Position numbers and translations under genes: made by a program | Notes under the pieces: generated by a model | What the model was told of the DNA's origin: nothing | The model's input: the letters and a program-made list of their open reading frames with translations, nothing else | Databases searched by the model: none | Shown: positions 24,353 through 40,800 of the stretch, piece after piece | Numbering within the stretch: position 1 is the first letter of the stretch | Layout of the letters: the number at the start of each line of letters is the position of its first letter | NCBI RefSeq assembly: GCF_000264945.2 | Contig: NZ_CP013070.1 | Location: 3,038,001-3,102,000, forward strand | Source of the DNA: Sphingobium indicum B90A | GTDB taxonomy: Bacteria > Pseudomonadota > Alphaproteobacteria > Sphingomonadales > Sphingomonadaceae | Reading direction: 5' to 3' | DNA: 64,000 nucleotides

Positions 24353-25942
24353 CTAATGGCGGAAGTGGCGCATGCCGGTAAACACCATCGCCAGGCCGGC
24401 TTCGTCGGCGGCGGCGATAACCTCCTCGTCGCGGATGGAGCCGCCGGGCTGGATCACCGCCGTCGCGCCCGCCTCGACCGCCGCCAGCAGGCCGTCGGCA
24501 AAGGGGAAGAAGGCGTCCGACGCGACCGCCGCACCGAGTGTGCGCGCCTCCGCCCAGCCCGCCTTTTCAGCGGCGTCCTTCGCCTTCCACGCGGCGATGC
24601 GGGCGGATTCCAGGCGGTTCATCTGCCCCGCGCCGATGCCCGCGGTGCTGCCCGCCTTGGCATAGACGATGGCGTTGGACTTGACATGCTTGGCGACGGT
24701 CCAGGCGAACAGGCAATCGTTCAGTTCCTGCTCGGTAGGGGCGCGCTTCGTCACCACCTTCAACTGATCGCGGGTGATCCGCCCATTGTCGCGGCCCTGC
24801 ACCAGCAGCCCGCCGGCAATGCTCTTGATCTGGAGGCCGGGGCGCGCCGGATCGGGCAGGTCGCCGGTCAGCAGCAGGCGGAGGTTCTTCTTCTTCGCGA
24901 AGATCGCCTTCGCATCCTCGTCCGCGTCCGGGGCGGCGACGACTTCGGTGAAGATGCCGCTGATCGCTTCGGCGGTCGGGCCGTCGAGCGGACGGTTGAC
25001 CGCGATGATGCCGCCGAAGGCCGAAACGCTGTCGCAGGCGAGCGCGGCTTCATAGGCCTCTATCAGCGTGGCGCCGGTGGCGACGCCGCAGGGATTGGCA
25101 TGCTTGACGATCACGACGGTCGGCGGACCGTCGCGGAATTCGCTGACCAGTTCCAGCGCGGCGTCGGCGTCGTTGTAATTATTGTAGCTGAGTTCCTTGC
25201 CCTGGACCTGCCGCGCCTGGGCGATGCCGTTGGCGGACGGGCCGACCGGCAGGTAGAGCGCGGCCGACTGGTGCGGGTTTTCGCCATAGCGAAGGGTCGA
25301 ACCCAGCCTGCTGGAGACCGAGAGGCTTTCGGGGAACTGCGCGCCCTGGTCGGCGAAGGCGAACCAGCTCGCGATCATCGAATCATAGGCGGCGGTGGCG
25401 GCATAGGCCTTGGCCGCGAGCATGCGGCGGAAGTCGTAGCTGGTCGCGCCGCCCTTCTCCTCCATCTCCGCGACCAGCCGGGCATAGTCGGCCGGGTCGG
25501 TGACGATGGCCACGCTTTCATGGTTTTTCGCGGCGGAGCGGACCATGGACGGGCCGCCAATGTCGATATTCTCGATGATCTCCTCGCGATCCGCCCCTTT
25601 CGCAACCGTGGCGGCGAAGGGGTAGAGGTTGACGACGACCAGGTCGATCGCGCCGATGTCATGCGCCTGCATGGCGGCGACATGCTCTGCATTGCCGCGC
25701 ACGGCGAGCAGGCCGCCATGCACCTTGGGGTGCAAAGTCTTGACGCGGCCGTCCATCATTTCGGGAAAGCCGGTGAGGTCGGAAATATCCTTCACGGCCA
25801 GGCCCGCCTCGCGCAGCGCCTTGGCCGTGCCGCCGGTCGACACCAGTTCGACCCCATGCCTGCCCAGCGCCTGGCCCAGCTCGATAAGGCCGGACTTGTC
25901 CGACACGGAAAGAAGGGCGCGCTTGATGGTGACGTCTGACAT
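24353..25942 (-). CDS. purH: bifunctional AICAR transformylase / IMP cyclohydrolase
   Basis: 529 residues carrying out the last two steps of IMP synthesis. The N-terminal cyclohydrolase has [30 protein letters not shown] and [13 protein letters not shown]; the C-terminal transformylase has [11 protein letters not shown] and ends FTGMRHFRH. Length is normal. It stands alone, with long repeat-bearing gaps on both sides. Confidence 0.96.
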
Positions 25943-26093
25943 GGGAGGTGCTTCCTGCTGCTGTTCGGGTGCCGCTCAGGCTTGCCGCAGGCCTCTAGAG
26001 CGATTTCGCGTGGAAGGGAACATCCGCCGAGCCGGAAATCGGGCCGCCGGCGCGAGGATGCGCGTTCCGGTCGGATACCCCTCATCAGTTTTC

Positions 26094-26207
26094 CGTCACC
26101 CGGGACCCTTCGACAAGCTCAGGACAGGCTTGATCCGGGATCCCGCTACCTTCTCCAAGCGGGCACTCAGAAAGAAAGCGGGACCCCGGGTCAAGCCCGG
26201 GGTGACG
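26094..26207. repeat. CGTCACCC-type palindrome with an inserted second repeat core (copy 2)
   Basis: The ends CGTCACC and GGTGACG and the arms GATCCGGGATCCCGCT and AGCGGGACCCCGGG match the palindrome at 24205-24296. The left arm is interrupted by about 22 bases containing CTTCGACAAGCTCAGGAC, the core of the repeat family at 4996 and 55930. Confidence 0.8.
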
Positions 26208-26246
26208 AATAGGGGAAGGTCCGTTCCCCCCCGACGACCAAAAGGA

Positions 26247-26280
26247 AAAAGCGCCCCATCCTTTCGGCTGGGGCGCTTTT
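26247..26280 (-). terminator. ssb intrinsic terminator
   Basis: AAAAGCGCCCCA and TGGGGCGCTTTT form a 12-base-pair stem around a 10-base loop, 21 bases after the ssb stop. A-run and T-run on the two sides make it potentially bidirectional. Confidence 0.85.
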
Positions 26281-26300
26281 CTTCCGTCCGGGACAGGCGC

Positions 26301-26858
26301 TCAGAACGGCACTTCATCGTCCAGGTCATTGTCGAAATTCGGCCCGCCCGCGCTGCCGCGCCCGCCGCCGGAGGAGCGGCCGGAACCGCCGCCGAAGCCG
26401 CCGCCGCCGAAATCGTCATAATCGCCGCCGCCAAAGCCGCTCGACCCGCCGCTCCAGTCGCCGCCGCCCTGGGAGCGGCCACCGCCGCCCTGGCCGCCGC
26501 CGCCCGGCGCGCCGTCAAGCATGGTCAGCACAGCGCCCGGACCCTGCAGCACCACTTCGGTGGTGTAGCGGTCATTGCCCGACTGGTCCTGCCATTTGCG
26601 GGTGCGGAGCTGGCCCTCCAGATAGACTTTCGACCCCTTGCGCAGGAAGCGTTCGGCCACGCCCGCCAGCCCTTCGGAGAAGATCGCCACGCTGTGCCAT
26701 TCGGTGCGCTCCTTGCGCTCGCCCGACATGCGGTCCTTCCAGCTTTCGGAGGTCGCGATCCGCAGGTTGCACACCTTCCCGCCATTCTGAAAGCTCTTGA
26801 CCTCCGGGTCGGCGCCCAGATTGCCGACCAGAATGACCTTGTTGACCGAACCCGCCAT
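26301..26858 (-). CDS. ssb: single-stranded DNA-binding protein
   Basis: 185 residues. The N-terminal OB fold has [24 protein letters not shown] and [17 protein letters not shown]. From about residue 115 a Gly/Ser-rich disordered linker leads to the acidic tip DDEVPF that recruits replication and repair partners. Length is typical of alphaproteobacterial SSB. Located between purH and feoB. Confidence 0.96.
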
Positions 26859-26884
26859 GTTTCCTCCGATGCTTTAGCTGGCCC

Positions 26885-28744
26885 TTATAGCCCCGCTGCG
26901 GTGGCGGTCCAGTAGGTAAGGCCGGCCGCGGCATAGGCCAGCGCGAACAGATAGCCGATCATGAACAGCGGCCACTTCCACCCGTTGGTCTCGCGCCGCG
27001 TCACCGCGATGGTGGAGATGCACTGCGGCGCGAAGACGAACCAGGCGAGGAAGGCGAGCGCCGTGGGCAGCGGCCAATTGTCCTTCAGCCGGTCGCCCAG
27101 GCTGCGCTCCAGCCTCGCTTCATCCTCGTCGGCGTCGAGCGAATAGACGGTGGCGAGCGCGGATACCGCCACTTCGCGCGCCGCCATGGCGGGGATCAGC
27201 GCGAGCGAGATGTCGCGGTTGAAGCCGATCGGGGCCAGCACCAGGTTGAGGCCGTTGGCGACGCGGCCCGCGATGGAATAGTTGACCTGGCTGACCGCGC
27301 CATCCTCCGGCGCCTTGGGGAAGCTGAGCAGCACCCAGAGGATCACGGTCGAGGTGAAGATGATCGTGCCTGCGCGCTTGAGGAAGATCACCGCCCGCTG
27401 CCACAGGCCCAGCACTATGTCCTGCGGGCGCGGCCACTGATATTTCGGCATCTCCATCAGGAAACCGCCGCTCGCGCCCCTGGTGACGGTGCGGCGCAGG
27501 ACCAGCGCCGCCAGCATCGCGCCGACGATGCCGGATATATAGAGGCAGAAGAGGACCAGCCCCTGAAGGCCGATGCCGAGCGCGACCGTGCGCGCCGGGA
27601 TGAAGGCGCCGATGATCACGGCATAGACCGGCAGCCGGGCGGAGCAGGTCATCAGCGGCGCGATCAATATGGTGGTCAGCCGGTCCTTCGGGTCCGCGAT
27701 GGTGCGCGTCGCCATGATCCCCGGCACCGCGCAGGCGAAGGAGGACAGCAGCGGGATGAAGGCCCGCCCCGACAGGCCCACCCGCGCCATCAGCCCGTCC
27801 ATCAGGAAGGCGGCGCGGACCATATAGCCGGTCGCCTCCAGCATCAGGATGAAGAAGAAGAGGATCAGGATCTGCGGCAGGAACACGATGACCGAGCCGA
27901 CGCCGTTCAGCACTCCGTCGACCAGGAAGGATCGCAGCAGTCCATCGGGCAGCGCGGCCGTCACGGCGTCGCCGGCGCTGGCGACAAAGCCCTCGATCAT
28001 GGCGATGGGCGCTTCGGACCAGGCATAGACCGCCTGGAACATGATGAAGAGAAGCGCGAGCAGCAGGACCAGCCCCGCGACGGGATGCAGCGCCACCCGG
28101 TCGACAGCCGCGGTCAGGCGGCGGGACGGGGTTTCGCGCACGACGGCGGCGCGGGCGATGCGGCGCGCCTCCCGGCGCAATCCTTCGAAATCGCTCTGTT
28201 CGCCTGGAGCGCGGGCCTTGCCGGCGCTGCCGTCCAGCATGGTTTCCAGCTCGCCGCGCAGATGATCCAGGCCGCGCTTGCGCACCGCCACGGTGGAGAT
28301 CACCGGCACGCCCAGTTCGCGGGACAGGATATGGGCGTCCAGTTCCAGCCCGTCGCGGGTGGCGAGGTCGACCATGTTGAGCGCGACGACGGTCGGCAGG
28401 CCCAGCGCGATCAGTTCCAGCGCGAAGCGGAGATGATTGTCGAGATTGGAGGCGTCGACCACCACGACCAGCGCGTCGGGCAGGCGCTCGCCCGCCTGCC
28501 TGCCCAATATGACGTCGCGCGTCACCTGCTCGTCGGGGCTGGTGGGGCTGAGGCTGTAGGTGCCGGGCAGGTCGACCAGTTCGATCGGGCGGCCGTCCGA
28601 GAGGGAAAAGCGGCCCGCCTTGCGCTCCACGGTGACGCCGGGATAATTGCCCAGCTTCTGCCGCGCCCCGGTCAGGGCGTTGAACAGGGCGCTCTTGCCG
28701 GCATTGGGATTGCCGACCAGCGCGATCAGCGGCAGGTTCGTCAC
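26885..28744 (-). CDS. feoB: ferrous iron transporter FeoB
   Basis: 619 residues, inner-membrane Fe2+ uptake. The N-terminal G domain shows GNPNAGKS (G1), LVDLPGTYSL (G3) and NMVD (G4), followed by a helical spacer and about eight helices with two Gate/nucleoside-recognition segments (FACAVPGIMATRTI and AAREVAVSALATVYS). The start GTG 28744 overlaps the feoA stop by four bases. It is shorter than E. coli FeoB (773 residues), and there is no separate feoC. Confidence 0.93.
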   Translation of the reverse strand: MTNLPLIALVGNPNAGKSALFNALTGARQKLGNYPGVTVERKAGRFSLSDGRPIELVDLPGTYSLSPTSPDEQVTRDVILGRQAGERLPDALVVVVDASNLDNHLRFALELIALGLPTVVALNMVDLATRDGLELDAHILSRELGVPVISTVAVRKRGLDHLRGELETMLDGSAGKARAPGEQSDFEGLRREARRIARAAVVRETPSRRLTAAVDRVALHPVAGLVLLLALLFIMFQAVYAWSEAPIAMIEGFVASAGDAVTAALPDGLLRSFLVDGVLNGVGSVIVFLPQILILFFFILMLEATGYMVRAAFLMDGLMARVGLSGRAFIPLLSSFACAVPGIMATRTIADPKDRLTTILIAPLMTCSARLPVYAVIIGAFIPARTVALGIGLQGLVLFCLYISGIVGAMLAALVLRRTVTRGASGGFLMEMPKYQWPRPQDIVLGLWQRAVIFLKRAGTIIFTSTVILWVLLSFPKAPEDGAVSQVNYSIAGRVANGLNLVLAPIGFNRDISLALIPAMAAREVAVSALATVYSLDADEDEARLERSLGDRLKDNWPLPTALAFLAWFVFAPQCISTIAVTRRETNGWKWPLFMIGYLFALAYAAAGLTYWTATAAGL

Positions 28745-29016
28745 AGGTCGCCGTCCGAAGGGCCGGTGCGGACGGTGATGGCGGCGGCATGGCTGCGGCG
28801 CATGGCAATGGTCATGCGGCCGACCTTGCAGGCTATGGGTCCGCGCCCCAGCAGCCCGCCATGGTGCAGCGCCTCGACGCTCGCGCCCTCGCACAGGCCG
28901 AATTCGCGCAGCCTTTGGCCGTCGGACGCGGACAGCGCGTTCCAGTCGATCAGGTCCACATAAGCGGGTTGGCGCAACGGCAGGTCGGTCAGGCGCAAGG
29001 GTAAGGCACTCGTCAT
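28741..29016 (-). CDS. feoA: ferrous iron transport protein A
   Basis: 91 residues forming an SH3-like beta-barrel that helps FeoB. LRLTDLPLRQPAYV, QRLREFGLCEGASVEALH and GRGPIACKVGRMTIAMRRSHAAAI match the family. It overlaps feoB by GTGA. AGAAG three bases before ATG serves as ribosome site, and a Fur-like box lies right upstream. Confidence 0.9.
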   Translation of the reverse strand: MTSALPLRLTDLPLRQPAYVDLIDWNALSASDGQRLREFGLCEGASVEALHHGGLLGRGPIACKVGRMTIAMRRSHAAAITVRTGPSDGDL

Positions 29017-29023
29017 CTACTTC

Positions 29024-29041
29024 TGCGAGTGACTATCAATA
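29024..29041 (-). promoter_or_regulatory. Fur-like box upstream of feoAB
   Basis: TGCGAGTGACTATCAATA matches an alphaproteobacterial Fur-type sequence (TGCAAATGATTATCATTT) at 13 of 18 positions. It ends 8 bases before the feoA start, where a bound repressor would block transcription under iron-rich conditions. Inferred from sequence likeness only. Confidence 0.5.
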
Positions 29042-29086
29042 CCGATTGGAAAAGGCCAGCGCGAATCGGCGCACCGGCGCCGCGGA

Positions 29087-29752
29087 TCATATGGCGGGGT
29101 AGCGCAGCCGTCCGATGAAGCGCGCGAAGCTCAGCCTCTCGCCCCCGCCAACGCCCTTCCACCGGGCCTTGGCGCGCTCGAACCGCATCACGCCTTCGAT
29201 CCGGCGGGCCAGGAAAGCGCGGGTCTCCGCCCAGTGATCGCTCTCGTCATCGACGAAAACCAGCAGGGTCGCGGCATAGACCCCCGCCAGCGTCAGCCGC
29301 TTGCTGTAATGATTGAGGTCCGTCGCCGCGTCGCCCGCGGCGCGCCACATGACGTCCGCCGCCCGCCAGCCGAGCCTGGCGGCCCGCGCCGCGTTGCGCG
29401 GCATGGCCATGACCGCCTGCGCCCGGCGCAGCGCCTCCCGATCCCGCGCCAGCAGGGTCAGGCGGGTTTCGACCAAGGCCGTTATGCGCTGGCGGATCGG
29501 CAGGGCGGCCAGCTTTTCCGGCGGCAGCGCGTCCAGCATCCGCGAATCGACGCTTGCGAACCAGGCGTCGATCATGTCCATCGCGCCGCCCGGAAAGGCG
29601 AGCGCGGCGATGTCGGCGTCGATGCCGCATTGTTCCGCCGCCATGGCCACGGCTTCCCCGCGCCACCCGTCGAAGGCGGCGTGGCGCGGCAGGATGGGCG
29701 CGAGCGCGGCGCGCACTTCGTCTAGCGTCATGTCTGGGTGCGTCGGGGTCAT
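29087..29752 (-). CDS. COQ9-family ubiquinone biosynthesis protein
   Basis: 221 residues, mostly alpha-helical. TetR-like helices at the start (LDEVRAALAPILPRHAAFDGW) and the C-terminal lipid-binding COQ9 domain with WRAAGDAATDLNHYSKR and LTLAGVYAATLLVFVDDE match bacterial COQ9, which supports the COQ7 hydroxylation step. The motif DLNHYSKR is strongly conserved in the family. No other ubi gene is nearby. Confidence 0.88.
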   Translation of the reverse strand: MTPTHPDMTLDEVRAALAPILPRHAAFDGWRGEAVAMAAEQCGIDADIAALAFPGGAMDMIDAWFASVDSRMLDALPPEKLAALPIRQRITALVETRLTLLARDREALRRAQAVMAMPRNAARAARLGWRAADVMWRAAGDAATDLNHYSKRLTLAGVYAATLLVFVDDESDHWAETRAFLARRIEGVMRFERAKARWKGVGGGERLSFARFIGRLRYPAI

Positions 29753-29934
29753 GATCCGCTATTACGCCCGGCCGGGCGGGCATACAAGCGCGGGCGGGAT
29801 TAGCGGGGATGTTTGCCGGCAAAGCAAAACTTGGCGACATGGCGCCGGGGCGGGGCTTGAAGCAGCCCCGCAGGCACCTTAGCTGGCGTGGGCAAGTTCC
29901 GTTGCAATCTGCAACTTTGAAGAGGGAATATTTC

Positions 29935-31017
29935 ATGGCCAATCTGTTCGAGCCGGTGCAGCTTGGGGCGATCCATGCCCCCAATCGCGTGCTGATGGCG
30001 CCGCTCACCCGCGCCCGCGCGACCCGCGACCATGTGCCGACGCCGATCATGGCGGACTATTATCGCCAGCGCGCTTCGGCGGGCCTCATCATCAGCGAGG
30101 GCATCGGCGTGTCGCGGCAGGGCCTGGGCTGGCCCTATGCGGCGGGCCTGTGGTCCGCCGAACAGGTCGAAGGCTGGAAGCCCGTGACGGCGGCGGTGCA
30201 TGAAGCGGGCGGACGGATCTTCGCCCAGCTTTGGCACATGGGGCGGCTGGTGCACAGCAGCATGACCGGCGAACAGCCAATATCCTCCAGCCCCGTCACC
30301 GCGCCCGGCCATGCGCACAGCTATGACGGCAACAAACCCTATGAGCAGCCGCGGGCGCTGGGCATCGAGGAGATTCCGGCCCTTGTCCAAACCTATGTGA
30401 CCGCCGCCCGCAATGCCATCGAGGCGGGGTTCGACGGCGTGCAGATCCACGGCGCCAATGGCTATCTGATCGACGAGTTCCTGCGCGACGGCGTCAACAG
30501 GCGCGAGGACGCCTATGGCGGTCCGCCGGAGAACCGCGTCCGCCTGTTGCGGGAGATCACGCAGGCCGTCGCCGACGCGATCGGCGCGGACCGCACGGCC
30601 GTCCGCCTGTCGCTGAACGGCGATTCGCAGGGCACCGACGACAGCGATCCCGCCAGCCTGTCGCTTGCTGTGGCGCAAGCGCTGGACCCGATCGGCCTCG
30701 CCTTCCTGGAGCTGCGCGAATTGCGGTCAGACGGCACGCGCGGCGCCAGCGACGTGCCGCGCCAATCGCCGCTTATCCGCCAGCATTATCGCGGGCCGCT
30801 GGTCCTCAACAGCGACTATGACGCGGCGCGCGCCCAGGCCGATCTGGACAGCGGGCTGGCGCAGGCGATCAGCTTCGGCCGACCCTTCATTTCCAATCCC
30901 GACCTGCCGGAACGGCTGTCGACCGGCGCGCCGCTCAATCCCCTGCGGCAGGAGACGCTCTATACGCAGGGCGCGGAAGGCTATGTCGATTATCCGGCGC
31001 TGGAAAAGGTTGCCTGA
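29935..31017 (+). CDS. alkene reductase, Old Yellow Enzyme family
   Basis: 360 residues from ATG 29935 after GAGGG. An FMN-dependent TIM barrel reducing activated C=C bonds with NAD(P)H. Motifs are NRVLMAPLTRARA at the start, QLWHMGRL, HGANGYLIDEF with His172, Asn175 and Tyr177 for substrate binding and protonation, AYGGPPENR, and the C-terminal SFGRPFISNPDL. The His/Asn pair fits the classical OYE group including NemA. Monocistronic and ended by a strong hairpin. Confidence 0.9.
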   Translation: MANLFEPVQLGAIHAPNRVLMAPLTRARATRDHVPTPIMADYYRQRASAGLIISEGIGVSRQGLGWPYAAGLWSAEQVEGWKPVTAAVHEAGGRIFAQLWHMGRLVHSSMTGEQPISSSPVTAPGHAHSYDGNKPYEQPRALGIEEIPALVQTYVTAARNAIEAGFDGVQIHGANGYLIDEFLRDGVNRREDAYGGPPENRVRLLREITQAVADAIGADRTAVRLSLNGDSQGTDDSDPASLSLAVAQALDPIGLAFLELRELRSDGTRGASDVPRQSPLIRQHYRGPLVLNSDYDAARAQADLDSGLAQAISFGRPFISNPDLPERLSTGAPLNPLRQETLYTQGAEGYVDYPALEKVA

Positions 31018-31022
31018 ACGAA

Positions 31023-31052
31023 AAAGGGGCCGCTCTATCGGGCGGCCCCTTT
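31023..31052. terminator. bidirectional terminator between the alkene reductase and ribH
   Basis: AAAGGGGCCGC and GCGGCCCCTTT form an 11-base-pair stem around 8 bases, flanked by an A-run on one side and T on the other. It separates convergent transcripts. Confidence 0.85.
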
Positions 31053-31071
31053 CCGGTTCGCGATCCTGCTG

Positions 31072-31494
31072 TCAGGCGCCGAATTTCTCGCGCAGGGCGA
31101 GCATGGCCATGGCCGCCTTGGCCGCTTCGCCGCCCTTGTCCTTTTCCTGCTTTTTCGCCCGGGTCAGCGCCTGGGCCTCGTTCTCCACCGTCAATATGCC
31201 GTTGCCGATGGGGATGCCGTCCATGCTGAGCGCCATCAGGCCCCGCGCGCTTTCGTTCGACACCACTTCGAAATGATAGGTTTCGCCGCGGATCACCACG
31301 CCGATGGCGATGAAGCCGTCATAGCGGCCGGTTTCCGCCGCCAGCGCCACCGCGCCGGGGATTTCCAGCGCGCCGGGAACCGTCACCACTTCATATTTAT
31401 GCCCCTCATCCTCCAGCGCGGCGACGGCGCCTTCGATCAGCAGGTCGTTGAGATGCTCGTAGAAGCGCGCTTCGACGATCAGGAATTTTGCCAT
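31072..31494 (-). CDS. ribH: 6,7-dimethyl-8-ribityllumazine synthase
   Basis: 140 residues, the step before riboflavin synthase. [15 protein letters not shown] opens the protein, [18 protein letters not shown] binds phosphate/substrate, [16 protein letters not shown] includes the catalytic His region, and [25 protein letters not shown] completes the site. Last gene of the ribD-ribE-ribB-ribH operon, 12 bases after ribB. Confidence 0.95.
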
Positions 31495-31506
31495 GGATAG
31501 GGTTCC

Positions 31507-32790
31507 TTAAAGCTCGATCGGCCGCTGCCCAACCACGGCCAGGTCATAGCCGTCAAGCGCGATCAGGCTGTGATGGGTGTTGCTGAGCAGGATCATGTCA
31601 TGAACGCCCAGTTCCGCCAGGATCTGCGCCCCCACGCCATAGTCGCGCAGTTCGTCCATGCCCGTATCGGGCTGGCCGGCATGGTGGCGCAGGCTGCGGC
31701 TGACGAAATCGCTCGGCACCGGAACGGTGAGCACGACGATGATCCCGGCGCCTTCGCGGGCGATGATGTCCATCGACCTGGCAAGCAGGCCGTTGCGCGG
31801 CCCGGTCGAACCATAGACGTCGTCCAGCAATGACAGTTGATGCATGCGGACCAGCGTGGGCTCGTCGGGCACGACATGGCCCTTTTGCAGCACGAGCTGC
31901 TCGGTCTGGGTCGCCTTGTTGTAGAAGCTGATCGCCTTCCAGTCGCCGCCCCACTGGCTGTTGAAGACGGTTTCGGCGCGGCGCTCCACCATATGGTCGT
32001 GGCGGCGGCGATAGGCGATGAGGTCGCGGATCGTGCCGATCTTCATCCTGTGCTTCTGCGCGAAGGGGATCAGGTCGTCCAGCCGCGCCATGGTGCCGTC
32101 GTCCTTCATCACCTCGCAGATGACGCCGGACGGGTTGAGCCCGGCCAGCCGGGCGACGTCCACCGCCGCCTCCGTATGGCCGGTGCGGACCAGCACGCCA
32201 CCGTCCTTCGCCACCAGCGGGAAGACATGGCCCGGCGTCACGATGTCGTCGCGCCCCTTCGACCCGTCGATGGCGACGGATATGGTGCGGGCGCGGTCGG
32301 CGGCGCTGATGCCGGTGGTGACGCCCTCGCGCGCCTCTATCGACACGGTGAAGGCGGTTTCGTGGCGGGTGCCGTTGTTGCGGCTCATCAGGCCCAGGCC
32401 CAGATGGTCGACCCGTTCCTTGCTGAGCGCGAGGCAGATGAGGCCGCGGCCATGGGTCGCCATGAAGTTGATCGCGTCGGGCGTCGCCATCTGCGCCGGG
32501 ATGACCAGGTCGCCCTCATTTTCCCGGTCTTCGTCGTCGACCAGGATGAACATGCGGCCGTTGCGCGCCTCGTTGATGATCTCTTCGGGGCTGGCGAGCG
32601 CGGTGCCGCCCTCGCGCCGGGCGAGATAGCCTTCCAGCTTGCCGAGCGTTTCGGCGGTGGGGTTCCAGTCCGCCTCGCCCAGCCTGCGCAGCGAATTGGC
32701 GTGAAGGCCCGCCGCGCGCGCCAGGCCGGATCGGGACATGCCGCCCTCCGTGACCAGCGAACGGACGGTATCGATAAGGGCTGACGACAT
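31507..32790 (-). CDS. ribB: 3,4-dihydroxy-2-butanone 4-phosphate synthase with N-terminal HTH and degenerate GTP cyclohydrolase II domain
   Basis: 427 residues in three parts. Residues about 1-60 form an XRE-like helix-turn-helix (SRSGLARAAGLHANSLRRL, then NPTAETLGKLEGYL). Residues about 66-275 are the synthase, with DDEDRENEGD (85-94) and RTGHTEA. The remainder resembles GTP cyclohydrolase II, but the zinc-binding three-Cys segment is replaced by LSLLDDVYGSTGPRNG, so this half is likely inactive (RibBX-type). ATG 32790 follows GGAAGGAG by 8 bases. A separate ribA is expected elsewhere. Three palindromic half-sites lie just upstream. Confidence 0.9.
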   Translation of the reverse strand: MSSALIDTVRSLVTEGGMSRSGLARAAGLHANSLRRLGEADWNPTAETLGKLEGYLARREGGTALASPEEIINEARNGRMFILVDDEDRENEGDLVIPAQMATPDAINFMATHGRGLICLALSKERVDHLGLGLMSRNNGTRHETAFTVSIEAREGVTTGISAADRARTISVAIDGSKGRDDIVTPGHVFPLVAKDGGVLVRTGHTEAAVDVARLAGLNPSGVICEVMKDDGTMARLDDLIPFAQKHRMKIGTIRDLIAYRRRHDHMVERRAETVFNSQWGGDWKAISFYNKATQTEQLVLQKGHVVPDEPTLVRMHQLSLLDDVYGSTGPRNGLLARSMDIIAREGAGIIVVLTVPVPSDFVSRSLRHHAGQPDTGMDELRDYGVGAQILAELGVHDMILLSNTHHSLIALDGYDLAVVGQRPIEL

Positions 32791-32825
32791 GCTAACGACT
32801 CCTTCCCCAGGACGGGTGGAGCGGC

Positions 32826-32867
32826 ATATCACATCAAGATGTGATTATGGCAAGCGATAATCACATT
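32826..32867 (-). promoter_or_regulatory. triple half-site operator candidate upstream of ribB
   Basis: Three copies of a half-site: ATATCACATC (32826-32835), its inverse GATGTGATTAT (32838-32848) and ATAATCACATT (32857-32867). The first pair makes the palindrome TCACATCAAGATGTGA; the second pair makes ATGTGATTAT with ATAATCACAT, spaced by 8. The right end overlaps the ribE stop. On the minus strand TTGCCA, 17 bases, GATATG could be a promoter within it. The HTH domain encoded just downstream is an obvious candidate binder (inference). Confidence 0.55.
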
Positions 32868-33475
32868 GAGGCTGCGCGAAGGCTCTGCATCCGGTCCAGA
32901 TAGCGCGCCAGCACGTCGATCTCCAGGTTGAAGGCGCGGCCGGGCGTCAAGCTGTCGAGCGTGGTCGCGGCGGCGGTATGCGGGATGATGTTGAGGCCGA
33001 AATGCACGGAGCCGTCCGCCTGGTCCTCGACCGTGTTGACGGTCAGCGAGATGCCGTCGACCGTGATCGATCCCTTGGCCGCCAGCGCGGGCGCCAGTGC
33101 GGCGGGCGCGGAGATGATGAGGCGTGTGGAATCGCCTTCATGCGCGGCGGACACCAGGGTGCCGATGCCGTCGACATGGCCGGTGACGATATGGCCGCCC
33201 AGTTCGTCGCCAACCTTCAATGCGCGCTCCAGATTGAGTCGGCCGCCCAATTCCCAGAGGCCCGGCGCGGTGCGGGCGACGGTTTCGGCCGACAGGTCGA
33301 CCGCGAACCAGTCCGCGCCCTTTTCCACCACCGTCAGGCAGGCGCCCGAACAGGCGATGGACGCGCCGATGGCGACCGTTTCCATGTCATAGGCGCAACC
33401 GATCACCAGGCGCAGGTCGCCGCGCTGTTCATGGGTGTGGATGGTGCCGATGTCGGTGATGATGCCGGTGAACAT
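32861..33475 (-). CDS. ribE: riboflavin synthase alpha chain
   Basis: 204 residues with two tandem lumazine-binding repeats: the first opens MFTGIITDIGTIHTHE, with GASIACSGACLTVVE and FAVDLSAETVART, the second has GGHIVTGHVDGIGTLV and KGSITVDGISLTVN. It converts two dimethylribityllumazines into riboflavin. It sits between a miniature repeat (upstream, toward ribD) and the palindromic operator candidate (downstream, toward ribB). Confidence 0.95.
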   Translation of the reverse strand: MFTGIITDIGTIHTHEQRGDLRLVIGCAYDMETVAIGASIACSGACLTVVEKGADWFAVDLSAETVARTAPGLWELGGRLNLERALKVGDELGGHIVTGHVDGIGTLVSAAHEGDSTRLIISAPAALAPALAAKGSITVDGISLTVNTVEDQADGSVHFGLNIIPHTAAATTLDSLTPGRAFNLEIDVLARYLDRMQSLRAASM

Positions 33476-33528
33476 GAAGAGCGCCTGTTATTTGTGGTGC
33501 CCCTGAAGGGCGATGCTTTCGGGGTGAT

Positions 33529-33634
33529 CTAGAGCGATTTCCAAGCGATCGGAACCGATCGCTGGTTAAGAAATCGCGGCAAACAAAGAATCTAGAGCGG
33601 CGATCTGATTCAATCAGATCGAAACCCGCTCTAG
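33529..33634 (-). repeat. TAGAGC-bounded miniature element inside the rib operon (copy 2)
   Basis: 106 bases between ribD and ribE, beginning CTAGAGCGATTTCC and ending GAAACCCGCTCTAG, so both ends read inward as CTAGAGCG. Inside are the palindromes AGCGATCGGAACCGATCGCT and GATCTGATTCAATCAGATC and a third CTAGAGCGG. TA at each end suggests IS630-type TA insertion. The ribD stop codon TAG (33633-33631) is part of this element. Copy 1 is at 24021-24118. Confidence 0.8.
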
Positions 33635-34620
33635 GCGTTCCGGCTGCGCAGGTAAACCTCCAGCCGATCATTGCCCAGCCGCCGTTCGTCGTCGAGCCGC
33701 CAGCGGCCATGCGCCCCGGCCAGATCGGTCAGGCCGATGTCGCCCACGCCCGCCAGCCCCGCGCCGATCAGGATCGGGGCGCGATAGAGCAGCAGCCGGT
33801 CGACCAGATCGGCGCGCAGGAAGGCGGCGGCGGCCTGCGCGCCGCCCTCCACCAGCAGATGGTCGACCTGCGGCAGGGCGGCGATGTCCTCCGGCGCGGC
33901 GATCACTTCCCAGCCGTCGGGCGCGTCGCCATGGCTGAGCAGCACGCGCCGGGGCGAGCGGTCCTCCAGCCCCGGCAGCCGCACGTCCAGCCGGGGCGCG
34001 TCGGCGCGCAGCGTGCCGCCGCCCACCAATATGGCGTCATGCCGCGCCCGCTCCATATGGGCATGGGCGCGGGCTTCGGGGCCGGTGATCCAGCGGCTGC
34101 TGCCGTCGGCCAGCGCGATCCGGCCGTCGAGCGACAGGCCGAGCTTCAGCGTCACCGCCGGGCGGCCCAGGGTCTGGCGCAGCACGAAACCGCGCATCGC
34201 GGCGGCGGCCTCCTCCTCCATCAGCCCCATGTCGACGGCGACGCCGTGCTGGCGCAGCCATGCGGCGCCCTGCCCGTCGGTGCGCGGATCGGGATCGCGC
34301 AGGGCGATCACCACCCGCCGCACCCCGGCGCGGGCCATCAGGTCGGCGCAGCGCGGGCCGCGCGGGGAAAGGTGGAAGCATGGCTCCAGCGTCACATAGG
34401 CGGTGGCGCCGCGGGCGCGGTCCAGCGCCTCGTCCAGCGCCTGCGCCTCCGCATGGGGGCGGCCGCCCCTCTGCGTCCAGCCGCGCCCGACGACATGGCC
34501 GTCCTTCACGATCAGGCAGCCGACATTGGGATTGGGCGTGGAAAGCCCCCGCCCGCGTTCCGAAAGGGCGATGGCGGCGGCCATGTAACGCCGGTCCTGC
34601 GCGGGATCGGCGGGGGCCAA
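33631..34620 (-). CDS. ribD: bifunctional diaminohydroxyphosphoribosylaminopyrimidine deaminase / reductase
   Basis: 329 residues. The deaminase half has the zinc site HAEAQAL and the PCFHLSPRGPRCADL region; the reductase half has RPAVTLKLGLSLDGRIA and LLVEGGAQAAAAFL. The likely start is TTG 34620, since the conserved DRRYMAAAIALSERGRG must be included; ATG 34584 would cut it. The stop TAG lies in the miniature element that follows. First enzyme gene of the rib operon; no FMN riboswitch is seen upstream. Confidence 0.93.
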   Translation of the reverse strand: MAPADPAQDRRYMAAAIALSERGRGLSTPNPNVGCLIVKDGHVVGRGWTQRGGRPHAEAQALDEALDRARGATAYVTLEPCFHLSPRGPRCADLMARAGVRRVVIALRDPDPRTDGQGAAWLRQHGVAVDMGLMEEEAAAAMRGFVLRQTLGRPAVTLKLGLSLDGRIALADGSSRWITGPEARAHAHMERARHDAILVGGGTLRADAPRLDVRLPGLEDRSPRRVLLSHGDAPDGWEVIAAPEDIAALPQVDHLLVEGGAQAAAAFLRADLVDRLLLYRAPILIGAGLAGVGDIGLTDLAGAHGRWRLDDERRLGNDRLEVYLRSRNA

Positions 34621-34655
34621 TATGGGTTCAGATCGGACGGTTTTGGATCGGGCGC

Positions 34656-35183
34656 TCAGGGCTGGGCCGCTCCGCTCTGGGTGGGGGCGGGGGCGGATTT
34701 TTCCGTGGCTTCAGCCTTGGCCAGACGCCGGTCGAGTTGCGCGTTGATCTGCTTCAGCGCTTCCTTGCGGCGGGCGGTGTTGCGCGCCTCGTCCTTCTTC
34801 CAGTCGATGCCGAAAATATCGGCCACGCCCTGCATTTCCCTCTGCCGCTTCTGGATCGCCGCCTCGCGCTTGGCGAGGTCGATCTTCTGCTGCAGGATGA
34901 TCGCCGCGTCGGTCCGGTTGGCGTCCCAGCTCTGCACATAGAAGATCTGGTTGCGGGTCGGCATGGTGTTGGTGTTCGCGTCGACGATGAAGGCCCAGAT
35001 GATGACCCAGGTGAACGCGACGGACAGGCCGAGCAGCGGCCATTTATGGGGCCGGTTCTCGCGAAAATAGCTCCACAGGTCGCTCATCGCGCTCTTGGGA
35101 GACACCGGACGGGGAAAGATCGCCATGCCGCCGATATAGGGGAAGGCGGGGCCGGATGCAAAAGCGCTGTCGCCTGCGGTCAT
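34656..35183 (-). CDS. single-pass membrane protein of unknown function
   Basis: 175 residues from ATG 35183. A polar N-terminus with SDLWSYFRENRPHKWPLLG precedes one transmembrane helix (LSVAFTWVIIWAFIV), then a periplasmic charged, probably coiled-coil part rich in Lys/Arg/Gln and a Pro/Ala/Gln tail. I do not recognise the family. It lies 23 bases after the TonB gene and 35 bases before ribD on the same strand, so all may be co-transcribed. Confidence 0.65.
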   Translation of the reverse strand: MTAGDSAFASGPAFPYIGGMAIFPRPVSPKSAMSDLWSYFRENRPHKWPLLGLSVAFTWVIIWAFIVDANTNTMPTRNQIFYVQSWDANRTDAAIILQQKIDLAKREAAIQKRQREMQGVADIFGIDWKKDEARNTARRKEALKQINAQLDRRLAKAEATEKSAPAPTQSGAAQP

Positions 35184-35206
35184 GTTCCGGCCCCTTTCCT
35201 TCGATT

Positions 35207-35896
35207 TCAGACGTCCGCCAGCCGGAAGTGGACGGTCAGCACCTTGGTCGAACTGACCGGCACGCCGTCCCGAGTCGCCGGACGGAAGCGCCATTTGCGC
35301 AGGGCATGGCGCTGCGTGGCGATCCAGAAGGCCTCGTCGACCGCCGACAGCCGCTCTATGTCGATGACGCGCCCGTCGGGGCCGATGGTGACGCGGACCA
35401 CGACCTTGCCCTCCATCCCCTGCCGGATCATTGCGCCGGGATAGTCGGGCTGGAACGCCGCCAGGGCGCGGGGATCGATGCTGGCCTCCGCCAGGACCGG
35501 TTCGGGAACCGGCGGGATGATGGGCGGAGTGATCGTGCCCGTGCCGGAATCTCCGGTGGGATGATCGTCGGTCTTCGCCGTGAAGCCGCCCTTGATGACC
35601 GTGTCGACGATGGGGTCGGAGACGGTGGTCGGTTGCGAACGGGCCTTGGGCTGGATTTTGCTGTCCGTTCCCGGGGCCGCTTCTTCGGGCGGCGGCGGGG
35701 GCGTTTCAGGAACGGCATAGGTCGTGAACGGAGAGCTGTGGAAGGTGTCGATCACCTCCTTGGGCATCAGCAGATAGGCGCCAAACACCAGCGCATGCAC
35801 GGCCACCGCGCCGCCTATGCCGATGGGGGAACGCCTGCCGCCGCTATAGCCGGAAATGGTCTCGCCGCCTGCCGCACCCGTGCTGATCCACTGCAT
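35207..35896 (-). CDS. TonB-family energy-transducing protein
   Basis: 229 residues. One N-terminal helix (VAVHALVFGAYLLM), a Pro-rich periplasmic spacer (ETPPPPPEEAA, ITPPIIPPVPEPV), and a C-terminal TonB domain with YPGAMIRQGMEGKVVVRVTIGPDGRV and ALRKWRFRPATRDGVPV. It would couple the proton motive force to outer-membrane receptors. AGGAGGG lies six bases before ATG. No exbBD or receptor is in the window. Confidence 0.9.
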   Translation of the reverse strand: MQWISTGAAGGETISGYSGGRRSPIGIGGAVAVHALVFGAYLLMPKEVIDTFHSSPFTTYAVPETPPPPPEEAAPGTDSKIQPKARSQPTTVSDPIVDTVIKGGFTAKTDDHPTGDSGTGTITPPIIPPVPEPVLAEASIDPRALAAFQPDYPGAMIRQGMEGKVVVRVTIGPDGRVIDIERLSAVDEAFWIATQRHALRKWRFRPATRDGVPVSSTKVLTVHFRLADV

Positions 35897-35937
35897 ATCT
35901 GCCCTCCTGTGGTTCGCTTCCTCTTCGAAAACTGATG

Positions 35938-35974
35938 TGTAACGTTACAACATATTTCTATGATATGTTGCAAC
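35938..35974 (-). promoter_or_regulatory. overlapping dyads upstream of the TonB gene (operator candidate)
   Basis: TGTAACGTTACA (35938-35949) is a perfect 12-base palindrome. It overlaps a second dyad, GTTACAACATAT (35944-35955) with ATATGTTGCAAC (35963-35974), 11 of 12 paired across 7 bases. The AT-rich block is unusual here and lies 42-78 bases before the TonB ATG, where a repressor or activator could act. Confidence 0.5.
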
Positions 35975-36041
35975 ATTAAATTTAAGGCGCGGGGAGAGAC
36001 GTGCTGCGGGATGTTGCTGGCCGTTTAGGTGGAAAGCTGAC

Positions 36042-36187
36042 CCATCCTATTCCTCCCCATCGGGAGATGGGGAGGGGGACCGGCCGAAGGCTGGTGGAGG
36101 GGAATGGGGCACGACCTCCGAATTTCCCCTCCACCACTCGCTTCGCGAGCGGTCCCCCTCCCCACGCTTCGCGTAGGGAGGAATTAA
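36042..36187. repeat. GGGGAGGAATAGGAT palindromic repeat, copy 2 (inverted)
   Basis: Runs CCATCCTATTCCTCCCC to CGCTTCGCGTAGGGAGGAATT, so it is opposite in orientation to the copy at 6445. Inner hairpins include CCATCGGGAGATGG and CTCGCTTCGCGAG. Confidence 0.85.
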
Positions 36188-36217
36188 TGCCCGCTCATGG
36201 CCCAATCCCGCTTATCC

Positions 36218-36362
36218 TAGGGTGTGTGGGGATTCAGTTCAGGGCGCGGCGAAAATAGTGGATTTCGAGAACCGGCGCGCAGCGTACTTCAGTACGTGAG
36301 CACCGAAAGCGGAGAAAGCCGCTATTTGCAGCCCGCCATGGGCTGAATCCCCACACGCCCTA
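36218..36362. mobile_element. 145-bp MITE-like element with 20-bp terminal inverted repeats and TA ends
   Basis: TAGGGTGTGTGGGGATTCAG (36218-36237) and CTGAATCCCCACACGCCCTA (36343-36362) pair at 19 of 20 positions. TA at both outer ends fits a TA target duplication as made by IS630-family transposases. The interior encodes nothing, and contains the hairpin GCGTACTTCAGTACGTG. Its right TA gives the stop codon of the DUF445 gene. Confidence 0.75.
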
Positions 36363-37622
36363 AAGCAGCGTATCCACCGCATGGATGGCGAGCCCCACCA
36401 GCCCGCCCACCAGCGTCCCGTTGACGCGGATATATTGCAGGTCGCGCCCGACCGCATGTTCCAGCCGGCTGGTGACGGTGCCCGCATCCCATCCGCGCAC
36501 CGTCTCGCTGACCAGCTTGACGATGGAATCGCCATAGGCCGCCGTCGCCCCGACTGCGGCGCGGCGCGCGAAGCGGTTGATGAGGAAACGCAGCCGGGCG
36601 TCCCACTGCAGGGTCGCGCCAAGCTGGTGCAGCGCTTCCCCCAGCCGCCCCGCCATCGCCTTGCCGGGATCGCGCACAGCCCGCAGCAGGCCGCTCCGCG
36701 CCTGCTCCCACAGGCCGTCGATCCAGCGCTGCATCGCCGGATTGTCGACGATCTCGTCGCGGATGCGCGCCACGCGGGCCTGCATCTCCAGGTCGAATTG
36801 CAGGTCGGCGGCGAGCTTCGCCAGCCCCTCCTCCGCCTTCAGACGCAGGCTGTGGCCGGGGTCCTGCGCCATGTCCGCCAGCAGCTTGCGCAGCCCATCG
36901 ATGATCGCGTTGGACAGATTCTCGTCCAGGCCGGTCCAGCGCAAAATCTTGCCGGAACGGTCGTGCACCATCTGGCGGATCAGATGGTCGTTAGCCTCCA
37001 ATGTCCGGTCCGCCCACAGGATGATGCCGTCCATCACCGGCGCATGGCGGCCGTCGCGCATCGCCGCCTCCAGCGCCTGGCCGATCAGCGGGGCGAGGTT
37101 CATGGCGCGCAGCCTTTGCGCGATGGCGCCCTTCACCATGCCACCCAGCCGTTCCTGGTCCAGCGCCTCCAATATGTCGGCGGCCAGGCGGGACGCGCCC
37201 TCCCGCAGCCGCCCGTCGCCGCCGGAGGGGCTGGCGAGGAAGCGCCCGGCCGCCGCCGCCATGTCCAGCCGCTGCATCCGCCGCGCCACCACGGCGGGGG
37301 TCAGGAAATTGTCGCGCAGGAACAGGGCGAGCGTGTCGCCGATCCGGTCCTTGTTGCGCGGGATGATCGCCGTGTGCGGGATGGGCAGGCCCAGCGGATG
37401 GCGGAACAGGGCGGTGACGGCGAACCAGTCGGCCAGCCCGCCGACCATCGCTGCCTCGGCAAAGGCCTGGACGAAGCCGATGACGGGGTGGAGGTGAACC
37501 GTCGCCCGCGCCGCCAGGAACAGCGCCGCCATGGCGATCAGCATGCCCGTCGCCGCGATCCGCATGCGCCGCGCCGGATGGACGGGGCTGGCGGCGGGAC
37601 GGGGCGGGGCGAGCATCTTCAT
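36360..37622 (-). CDS. DUF445 (YjiN-like) membrane protein
   Basis: 420 residues. Two N-terminal hydrophobic stretches (IAATGMLIAMAALFLAARATV and FVQAFAEAAMVGGLADWFAVTALF), the family hallmark ALFRHPLGLPIPHTAIIPRNKDRIG, a long helical middle, and a C-terminal helix (YIRVNGTLVGGLVGLAIHAV). Function is unknown; related proteins are inner-membrane anchored. The stop TAG is formed by the end of a miniature element, so the original C-terminus may have differed. Confidence 0.88.
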   Translation of the reverse strand: MKMLAPPRPAASPVHPARRMRIAATGMLIAMAALFLAARATVHLHPVIGFVQAFAEAAMVGGLADWFAVTALFRHPLGLPIPHTAIIPRNKDRIGDTLALFLRDNFLTPAVVARRMQRLDMAAAAGRFLASPSGGDGRLREGASRLAADILEALDQERLGGMVKGAIAQRLRAMNLAPLIGQALEAAMRDGRHAPVMDGIILWADRTLEANDHLIRQMVHDRSGKILRWTGLDENLSNAIIDGLRKLLADMAQDPGHSLRLKAEEGLAKLAADLQFDLEMQARVARIRDEIVDNPAMQRWIDGLWEQARSGLLRAVRDPGKAMAGRLGEALHQLGATLQWDARLRFLINRFARRAAVGATAAYGDSIVKLVSETVRGWDAGTVTSRLEHAVGRDLQYIRVNGTLVGGLVGLAIHAVDTLL

Positions 37623-37698
37623 GACCAGCCAACGGTTACGCCGCCGTTTCGTTCAGGCAAGCGCTTCTTTTCGGTGGGGTGCGGCGGGATGGCTTTCA

Positions 37699-37840
37699 AA
37701 ATCCTCCCTGCGCGAAGCGTGGGGAGGGGGACCGCGCGAAGCGTGGTGGAGGGGAAATACGCAGGTTGCGCGCCCTTCCCTCCACCATGCTTCGCATGGT
37801 CCCCCTCCCCATCTCTCGATGGGGAGGAATCGGATAGGTC
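37699..37840. repeat. GGGGAGGAATAGGAT palindromic repeat, copy 3
   Basis: Starts AATCCTCCCTGCGCGAAGCG, ends GGGGAGGAATCGGATAGG. Inner hairpins are GCGCGAAGCGTGG and CCATGCTTCGCATGG. It lies 7 bases from the stop of the RND permease gene. Confidence 0.85.
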
Positions 37841-37847
37841 CGCCTTC

Positions 37848-40800
37848 CTATTCCGCCGGTTGCGCGGCTCCGGCGCGGTCGTCCCCCGGCTTGTAGGTCA
37901 GCAGGCGGCGGCCAAGGCGCGGGCCGACCCATTCCTCTATCCCCAGCGCTAGGCTGAAGGTCGCGGGCACGATCACCAGCGTCAGCACGGTCGACAGGAT
38001 CAGGCCGCCGATCACGGTGATGCCCATCGGGGCCCGCCATGCGCCGTCGCCGCCCAGCGACAGGGCCGTCGGCACCATGCCCGCCACCATCGCCACGGTG
38101 GTCATGACGATGGGCTGGGCGCGCTTGTGCCCGGCGTCGATGATCGCCTCCAGCTTCGGCACGCCCTTGCCCATCTCCTCCAGCGCGAAGTCGATGACGA
38201 GGATGGAGTTCTTGGCGACGATGCCCAGCAGCATCAGCAGCCCGATCAGCACCGGCATCGACACCGGATTGCCGGTCAGGTGCAGCGCCAGCGCCCCGCC
38301 CAGCGGCGCCAGCAGCAGCGACCCCAGGTTGACGAAGGGCGGCATCAGCCGCTTGTAGAGCAGCGTCAGCACCGCCAGCACCAGCATGATGCCGGAAATG
38401 ACGGCGATGACGAAATTCTGGATCATCTCCGCCTGCCACTTGCTGTCGCCGGTGTTCAGCTTCTGCACGCCCGGTATCTTGCCGGCGGCGATGGCCTTCA
38501 TGGTCGGCAGGGCGTCGATCTTGGCCATGGCCTGGCTGGTGACGATGCCCGGCGCCAGGTCCGCGCCCACGACGATGCGGCGGATCTGGTTGTAACGGCG
38601 GATCTGCGTCGGCCCGGCGCCGAATTCGATGTCGGCCACGACCTTCAGCGGCACGGAACCGCCGTTGACCGTGGGCACCGGCATGTTCTGGATCGTCGCC
38701 AGGTCGCGCCGGCTGTTTTCCGCCACCGCCACGCGGATCGGGATCTGCCGGTCGGACAGGGAGAATTTGGCGCTGTTCTGGTCGATGTCGCCGATGGTCG
38801 CGACGCGGATCGTCTGGCTGAGCGCGGCGGTGGTGACGCCCAGGCTGGCGGCCAGGTCGAAGCGCGGCTTGATGACGATTTCCGGCCGGTTCATGTCGCC
38901 CGCGACCCGCGGCGCGCGGATTTCATGGATGCCGGCCATTTCCGCCACCAGCTTGTTGGCGGTCTGTTCCAGCTTCGCCGGATCGTCGCTGCCGAACATG
39001 ATGATGATGTCGCGGCCGAAGCCGCCGCCCGACTGCGACTGGAAATTGACGCGGGCGTCGGCCACCTGCTGGAATTGGGGCGCGATCTTGCGCTCCCACT
39101 GGACGGAGGAGATCGGCCGGTCCTTCTTGAGCGTCAGGAAGATGTCGGCCCCTGTGGTCTGGATGTCGGCAAAGGCGGCCTCCACCATGTCCTTGTCGGC
39201 GGCCAGCATGTCGGCGACCTTGCGCGTGATCGCCGTCGTCTGCTGCAACGTGCTGCCGGGCACGGTTTCGATCTTCACTTGGCTGAAATCGGTGTCGATC
39301 GTCGGCTGGAACGACATGGGCAGCGTGCCGAAGGCGAAGATCGTGGCGACGAAGGCCAGGAAGCCCATGCCCATCGTCCAGATGCGATGGTCGCGCAGCC
39401 AGGCGGTGAAGCGGGCCATGCCGCCCCGCGCGCGATGGGCGATGGCCTTGCGCTCGTCCAGCGACCAGCGCAGCACCGCCATATAGGCGTCCATCAGCCA
39501 ACCCTCGCCATGGCTTTCCTGGCCATGCGCCTTCAGGAAATAGGCCGCGATCATCGGCGTGATCAGGCGCGCCACGGCCAGGCTGAGCAGCACGGCGACC
39601 ACCACGGTCATGCCGAACTGGATGAAGAACTGGCCCGAAATGCCCGGCATCAGCGCGACGGGCAGGAACACCGCGACGATCGCCATGGTGGTCGCCAGCA
39701 CGGCGAGGCCGATCTCGTCGGCGGCGTCGATGGAGGCCTGATAGGCGCTTTTGCCCATGCGCATGTGGCGCACGATATTCTCGATCTCCACGATGGCGTC
39801 GTCGACCAGCACGCCCGCGACCAGGCTCAATGCCAGCAGCGAGATGCCGTTCAGCGTGAAACCCATCATGTCCATGAACCAGAAGGCGGGAATCGCGGAC
39901 AGCGGAATGGCCAGCGCGGAAATCATGGTCGCGCGCCAGTCGCGCAGGAACAGGAAGACGACGACCACGGCCAGCACCGCGCCCTCGATCATCGCCTGCA
40001 TGGCGCTGTGATATTGGCCCTTGGTATATTCGACGCTGGTGTAGAGCTGCTTGTACTGGACCTTCGGATTTTCCTTCCGAAGCTGGTCCAGCACCTTCAT
40101 CGCCTCGTCGAACACGGTGACGTCGGACGACCCCTTGGCCTTTTCCATGCTGAAACTGGTCACCTGCCGCCCGTTCATCAGGGACAGCGAACGCTGTTCG
40201 GCATACATGTCGCGCACGTCGGCCAGGTCGGCCAGCTTGACGGTGCGGCCGCCGGAAATGGCGATCTGGGTCTGGCCCAGCGCATAGGCGTCGCGGGCGT
40301 TGCCGAGCACCCGGATCGCCTGTTCGGCGCCGGCGATCTCGGTCCGGCCGCCCGCCGCGTTTAGGTTCACCTGCTGGAGCTGCTGGTTGACCTGGCTAGC
40401 GGTGATGCCGTGCGATTGCAGCTTGGTGGGGTCCAGGATGACGCGGATCTCGCGGGAAACGCCGCCGCCGCGCTTGACCGCCGCCATGCCCGGCACGGCC
40501 AGCAGCCGCTTCGCCACCGTATTGTCGACATACCAGGACAGCTCCTCCAGCGTCATGTCGGTCGCTTCGGCGCTGAAATAGGCGATCGGCCCGCCGTCGA
40601 TGTCGACGCGGCTGACCTGCGGCTCCAATATTCCCTCTGGCAGGTCGCTGCGGATCTGGTCGACGGCGTTCTTCACATCGTTGACGGCGCGGTCGACGGG
40701 CGTTCCGATCTGGAACTGCACATTGGTGTTGGACTGGCCTTCCGATACCCAGGACGTGATCTCGTCCACGCCGCTGATGCCGCGCACGGCGGCTTCGACG

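Follow-up and report, generated by a model that had tools for sequence, protein, structure and literature searches.

How is ribB controlled in a bacterium in which no FMN riboswitch is seen before the riboflavin genes? The question is raised by ribB of Sphingobium indicum B90A, which lies in a 64,000-nucleotide stretch of contig NZ_CP013070.1 (hereafter, the window; positions are counted from its first letter). A first-pass annotation of this stretch had noted a DNA-binding head on RibB and proposed that the protein may bind sites next to its own start, sense substrate or flavin and so regulate ribB-ribH. Here, we follow the head and the putative operator through the window protein, its upstream region, its counterparts in the sphingomonad family and the related proteins of prophages.

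RibB of the window is an HTH-RibBX fusion

The window ribB gene encodes a single chain in which a helix-turn-helix (HTH) head precedes a full RibB domain and a RibX domain (Table 1), and this fusion is kept across the family. The RibB domain aligns to the PDB entries 6mnz and 1g57, with 6mnz as the best PDB sequence match. The zinc cysteine motif of GTP cyclohydrolase II is C-x10-C-x-C; a motif check found it to be absent from the RibX domain of the window RibB, and a profile search located the true ribA elsewhere in the source genome (C1:3332351, 234 bits, above the cut-off). The enzyme part is therefore of the RibBX kind, in which the domain after RibB resembles RibA but has no zinc cysteines, and ribA is encoded elsewhere. 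No riboflavin kinase domain of the type that defines RbkR was found, the domains being those of a DHBP synthase and a GTP-cyclohydrolase-like protein. A structure model of the full protein reached a mean pLDDT of 72 and was left unused for detail.

Family models see the head only faintly. In isolation (71 aa), it matched Pfam HTH_3 with an E-value of 0.0091 and 16.5 bits against a cut-off of 23, and aMBF1 with an E-value of 0.0089, again below the cut-off. None of the curated HTH models exceeded its own cut-off for the RibB head, and the stand-alone relatives of the head described below also remained under these thresholds. One such relative was modelled with a pLDDT of 87.2; its best PDB fold matches are XRE proteins, including C.AhdI, HipB and, in fourteenth place, P22 c2. 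Their E-values are 0.17 or worse, however, and no PDB fold match at 0.001 or better was obtained. The proposal that residues 1–60 form an XRE-like HTH is borne out as regards the fusion, and we regard the head as a real HTH that is sub-threshold by family models.

Table 1 Features of the ribB locus in the window.
Feature	Position	Strand	Basis or remark
ribB, HTH-RibBX fusion, 427 aa (ATG at 32788–32790)	31507–32790	-	ORF and domain profiles
HTH head, residues 1–60	32611–32790	-	HTH_3/aMBF1 below cut-off; homologous to stand-alone prophage HTHs
Recognition segment GLHANSLR, residues 28–35 of the HTH head			
DHBP synthase (RibB) domain, residues 69–260	32011–32586	-	PF00926, E 1.1e-83
RibX domain, residues 270–424, GTP cyclohydrolase II relative	31519–31983	-	PF00925
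ribH, 12 bases downstream of ribB, presumed co-transcribed target	31072–31494	-	ORF; name by reading
ribE, neighbour upstream of ribB	32861–33475	-	ORF; name by reading
Putative main operator palindrome, TCACAT-N4-ATGTGATA	32827–32845	-	Unique exact match; conserved in HTH-bearing relatives
Putative outer operator half-site, ATGTGATTAT	32857–32866	-	Matching half of the main palindrome lies 32 bp away
Putative promoter, TTGCCA - 17 bp - GATATG	32848–32853 and 32825–32830	-	By eye; straddled by the palindrome

A putative operator precedes ribB

The palindrome upstream of the window ribB is a perfect ATCACAT-N4-ATGTGAT at 32828–32845, which has one exact match in the window and none in 100 shuffles. 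Its only exact occurrence in the 3.95 Mb source genome is this one, and tolerance of up to three mismatches yielded 29 places there as compared with 2 for the control. The word ATAATCACAT is found three times in the source genome, twice at ribB (32839–32848 on the minus strand and 32857–32866 on the plus strand). Three half-sites had been placed 36–78 bases before the ribB ATG, and we indeed find them ~37–76 bases upstream, the outer one overlapping the stop codon of ribE (32861–32863). Their description as a triple site holds as far as the number of half-sites goes; the 31–32 bp spacing is that of a phage operator layout, so they are better read as a complete palindrome accompanied, 31–32 bp upstream, by a second palindrome that is half eroded. 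The gap between palindrome and ATG measures 36–37 nt in the window and contains, by eye, a Shine-Dalgarno-like AAGGAG. The suggested overlap with a promoter fared less evenly: a TTGCCA-17-GATATG element with 8 of 12 consensus bases can be seen by eye under the palindrome, but a strict sigma-70 scan of 32700–33000 found no promoter.

A CRP-like site has the form TGTGA-N6-TCACA, and this identity was rejected at ribB because the half-sites face the opposite way. The third genomic copy of ATAATCACAT (C1:1629435, about position 2436 of locus L002) stands alone, ~150 bp upstream of an open reading frame that resembles a gene for 5-formyltetrahydrofolate cyclo-ligase; being a single half-site, it was rejected as a further operator. 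Between ribE and ribD, at window positions 33525–33640, the word tctagagcg recurs and there is also an inverted gcgatcggaaccgatcgc, perhaps a small repeat element.

Head and putative operator co-occur across the family

The family sample comprised 199 genomes, of which 193 had a RibB match. Starts of ribB were taken from 110 listed genomes and from all 43 whose RibB place was unlisted, while ~40 further listed genomes, whose RibB match extends into the head, are outside the locus set; a RibB locus without the search motif (L282) and a duplicate (L285) were excluded. This gave 157 scored ribB loci in 153 genomes, 118 of them headed and 39 headless. Each locus was scored by the number of TCACAT-N4-ATGTGA bases matched at the best place within a fixed stretch of 370 bases upstream, with a cut-off of at least 10 of 12 bases that was set after the scores were seen.

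At this cut-off, an operator was scored before 115 of the 118 headed ribB genes (61 perfect) and before none of the 39 headless ones (Fisher p 9e-34, a value that ignores kinship). The three remaining headed loci (L065, L097 and L242) scored 9/12, as did 3 of the 39 headless loci; the 13 headless loci chosen first scored at background. Among named genomes, at least one of which was already in the sample, the operator was present in 12 of 12 headed and 0 of 4 headless cases.

A RibB tree was built without the head from 103 proteins (92 from the family and 11 from the outgroup, with 3 incomplete rows skipped); the three weak headed loci all lie outside it. On this tree, the head state changes 8 times (7–9 in bootstrap replicates, with at least 4 changes forced by well-supported branches) and the operator state also changes 8 times, the two agreeing in 92 of 92 rows. 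Independent pairs on supported branches number only four, and all four agree, for which p 0.125 is the least possible value. Genera g91 and g6 each hold both headed and headless ribB, and in genus g81 the headed locus L477, whose gene frame is broken in the assembly and whose two palindromes are spaced by 33 bp, contrasts with the headless G149 and G081. The first-pass annotation had named relatives that keep the HTH without the half-sites, or the reverse, as grounds for abandoning the idea; instead, the two are found and lost together and change together on the tree.

The operator is also nearly unique to ribB. The exact 14-base TCACAT-N4-ATGTGATA occurs in 46 of the 199 family genomes, and a reversed-pattern control in none. 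In 45 of the 46 it lies 11–78 nt before ribB, and at the level of these exact matches the idea that the RibB head controls a larger set of genes was rejected; the 46th match lies in a prophage of genome G017. With the exact operator confined to ribB bar this one prophage, position and gene order make ribB-ribH the probable target, as had been suggested. At 52 of 64 comparable ribB loci, an outer ATGTGA half-site is found at 29–33 bp (mode 31–32 bp), as against 0, 4, 6 and 16 of 64 for control words, and CACA and TGTG are invariant among the 64 aligned ribB sites. The distance from palindrome to ATG is 7–13 nt in 63 of 96 ribB loci (13 nt in phages), and the ribB transcript may be leaderless at such loci.

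Stand-alone relatives of the head occur beside the same operator in prophages

The set of stand-alone heads comprised 17 viral-contig loci together with Pan3 from a phage collection (L406), G021 and G036; the set includes identical or almost identical contigs (L408/L342, L420/L355, L407/L266/L424, L413/L415 and L409/L410, with L424 a second copy of L407). The RibB head and the stand-alone prophage HTHs share 42–53% identity. Genome G017 has two RibB proteins, both headless, and one stand-alone head of 68 aa in its operator-bearing prophage, which the RibB-head profile finds with an E-value of 3.2e-16. This prophage stretch is 100% identical to an IMG/VR viral contig (L407). Palindromes lie at −60 and −29 from the start of the stand-alone head, and a second pair lies further off, the members of each pair being 31 bp apart. 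A blind scan for palindrome pairs in 20 loci (L406–L425) recovered like pairs with 31-bp spacing near the start in L407, L412, L418, L420 and L421, and distally in L406, L407, L408, L411, L412, L418, L420 and L421; pairs listed in L409 and L422 look accidental.

The repressors that adjoin the heads in L342, L355, L266 and L406 matched S24 above the cut-off in all four proteins scanned and HTH models more weakly, with one match over its cut-off. By these profiles, the neighbouring repressors are CI-like, HTH plus S24, in 4 of 4. The palindrome layout and the CI-like neighbour point to the RibB head as a relative of the Cro-like protein of a lambda-style switch. Operator sequence and layout are shared, so that the head belongs with phage Cro proteins; RibB as a whole is no phage protein.

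In the stand-alone loci, the operator letters follow the recognition helix word. Eight loci with HPN have near-start sites that match TCACAT-N4-ATGTGA at 10–11 of 12 bases, and nine loci with HRN or HHN (L455 included) have a perfect GCATAT-N4-ATATGC at about the same place (−60/−29). Two viral heads, L422 (HPG), with TCTCAT-N4-ATGAGG, and L423 (HRN), with only a poor GCATAT match, suggest that more specificities exist in the Cro-like family. RibB heads carry HAN, HPN, HSN or HVN as the helix word, together with TCACAT operators. The comparison, with homologues of the head at the same operators in prophages, strongly supports the earlier proposal that RibB is the cognate binder of the half-sites, and comparative evidence likewise points to a cognate operator at the enzyme's own gene.

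Of at least 120 viral-contig stretches that were picked out by the operator alone, 80 loci were inspected. A motif script made five calls there; two are real stand-alone heads and the rest were rejected as chance frames. Separately, the source of a 64-aa phage-type HTH protein (P0023) gives it the name DHBP synthase/GTP cyclohydrolase II, evidently on account of the head that it shares with RibB.

FMN riboswitches are rare in the family

Neither the window at 25000–40000 nor the source genome yielded an FMN riboswitch, in keeping with the earlier remark that none precedes ribD. Under stricter filters, with which weak ones may be missed, the FMN riboswitch (RF00050) was detected in 1 of 199 family genomes versus 21 of 142 in a class sample. 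The single family case, G164 (L454/L283), has lost the headed RibB; 1.7 kb beyond the riboswitch it encodes a very divergent RibBA that has the zinc motif. In the same genus, G008 and G102 (L047 and L074) have a headed RibB and the operator. G164, with a rib operon that looks foreign, is thus one natural replacement. As a general substitute in HTH-less relatives the riboswitch was rejected, since G164 alone has one. HTH-less relatives live without the head and without an FMN riboswitch, so the predicted head-based control is dispensable.

Reach and origin of the headed RibB

Of 385 class genomes, 283 had a match; among the matches listed, the start of the head was reached in only 4, all from the same family, and the remaining listed matches start no earlier than residue 29. 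A head tree of 62 columns did not reject the RibB heads as one clade (p-AU 0.45) and gives no direction of transfer between RibB and phage. The RibB heads form one clade, or nearly so, with respect to phage heads, which makes one origin likely. An Eremiobacterota metagenome-assembled genome (L220, PMHO01000042.1, 3001–3351) encodes a RibB whose head is clearly of the XRE type but differs from that of the window RibB (40.8 bits with HTH_3, which exceeds the cut-off), possibly an independent HTH-RibB fusion in another phylum.

Proposed mechanism and alternative explanations

Based on these comparisons, we consider it very probable that HTH-RibB binds its own operator as a dimer and represses ribB-ribH, through a head and an operator common to phage immunity regions. 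The head, which is homologous to the small Cro-like regulators of sphingomonad-type prophages, would be a DNA-binding part of the Cro/C1 type. A RibB dimer would present two heads to the TCACAT-N4-ATGTGA palindrome, and the weaker site 31–32 bp upstream would aid binding. Bound RibB would occlude the presumed promoter and thereby lower the expression of ribB and of ribH, which is presumably co-transcribed. Repression would scale with the amount of RibB, which amounts to negative autoregulation by an enzyme-repressor fusion, in a layout of head and operator that is shared with the OR/PR-like phage immunity region. The RibX domain is our best candidate for a ligand sensor, although this is a guess.

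The palindrome might instead be the site of another, unfused host regulator, with the RibB HTH as a leftover or a protein-contact domain. Such a reading draws on the faint match of the head to family models and on the fact that RibB binding to the palindrome is a prediction from sequence, but we judge it very unlikely, given that head and site go missing together throughout the 92 rows of the tree, that its near-restriction to ribB is not required by an independent regulator, and that prophages with the head but without a RibB fusion carry the site. It also seems unlikely that HTH-RibB activates ribB, or merely tunes it by DNA looping between two sites. The spacing of 31–32 bp, about three helical turns, would allow same-face contacts; however, a protein on a palindrome located 7–13 nt before the ATG, as in 63 of 96 loci, would block RNA polymerase, and the phage site has the position of an operator beside a CI-like repressor.

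That the inverted repeat works as RNA, in the form of an attenuator or a riboswitch-like hairpin, has hardly any likelihood in our assessment. No Rfam family was found at window positions 25000–40000, and the search for FMN riboswitches was negative for 198 of 199 family genomes; moreover, although the palindrome could by eye fold with a CTTG loop, the invariant CACA/TGTG of the 64 aligned sites is not replaced by alternative base pairs, and no hairpin would include the outer half-site. Autoregulation by HTH-RibB at a phage-type operator has a possible corollary. HTH-RibB and HPN-type prophages appear to read the same operator, and HTH-RibB may for this reason double as a host-borne immunity repressor against HPN-type phages, while a prophage repressor may throttle ribB. 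We regard this as doubtful. The cases agree with it but are few, three in all: the sole host found with a TCACAT-type prophage, G017, has no headed RibB, and G021 and G036 combine a headed RibB with GCATAT-type prophages.

Relation to known systems and significance

The trigger enzymes PutA, NadR and BirA combine enzyme and repressor in one chain, act on genes of their own pathway and are known to be regulated by ligands; they differ from HTH-RibB in their folds and ligands. In the riboflavin pathway itself, archaeal RbkR is described, in the accessible part of the source, as a riboflavin kinase with an N-terminal HTH that is "bifunctional as gene regulator and enzyme", and its relative MJ0056 as being without the HTH (PMC8305020). 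As far as that text goes, RbkR resembles HTH-RibB in joining a flavin-pathway enzyme to a DNA-binding head and in acting on flavin genes. It differs in being archaeal and a kinase rather than a DHBP synthase, and the RibB head is of the phage Cro type, with its operator.

RibBX of Acinetobacter baumannii (6mnz) has the same two enzyme domains as the window RibB. The X domain of Shewanella RibBX has no cyclohydrolase activity, yet modulates RibB, according to the accessible sections of one report, which do not describe known RibBX with an HTH head such as that of the window RibB (PMC10012899). The Cro/CI regions of sphingomonad-type prophages (L406 and L407–L425) resemble the ribB locus in the homologous head, the palindromes centred on four bases, the 31-bp tandem and the same distance to the start codon, and the prophages' own neighbour is CI-like. 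Unlike RibB, the prophage heads stand alone at 60–120 aa without an enzyme, and operator pairs flank the repressor gene in several loci.

In the literature searched, with subscription papers mostly beyond reach, we found no description of a headed RibB, and a term search of the accessible portions of two reviews returned none (PMC12542839, PMC13028884). Enzyme-repressor fusions are already known, RbkR in the riboflavin pathway included; what appears to be new here is a headed RibB with an unusual, phage-type operator. Novosphingobium panipatense is a strong natural riboflavin producer, with 497.12 in a table of the second review, as far as its accessible part shows (PMC13028884). The present results may help in engineering sphingomonads for riboflavin.

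The stand-alone heads and their sites provide a ready data set on the recognition code, in which each of three operator words goes with one of three types of helix. Two questions become accessible to direct test: is repression set by the level of the enzyme or by flavin, and can an enzyme of metabolism interfere with phage lysogeny? If the proposed mechanism is true, a DHBP synthase would act as its own repressor, giving a large bacterial family a non-riboswitch control of riboflavin synthesis, and the locus would be a clear case of the sharing or domestication of a phage-type operator and head in core metabolism.
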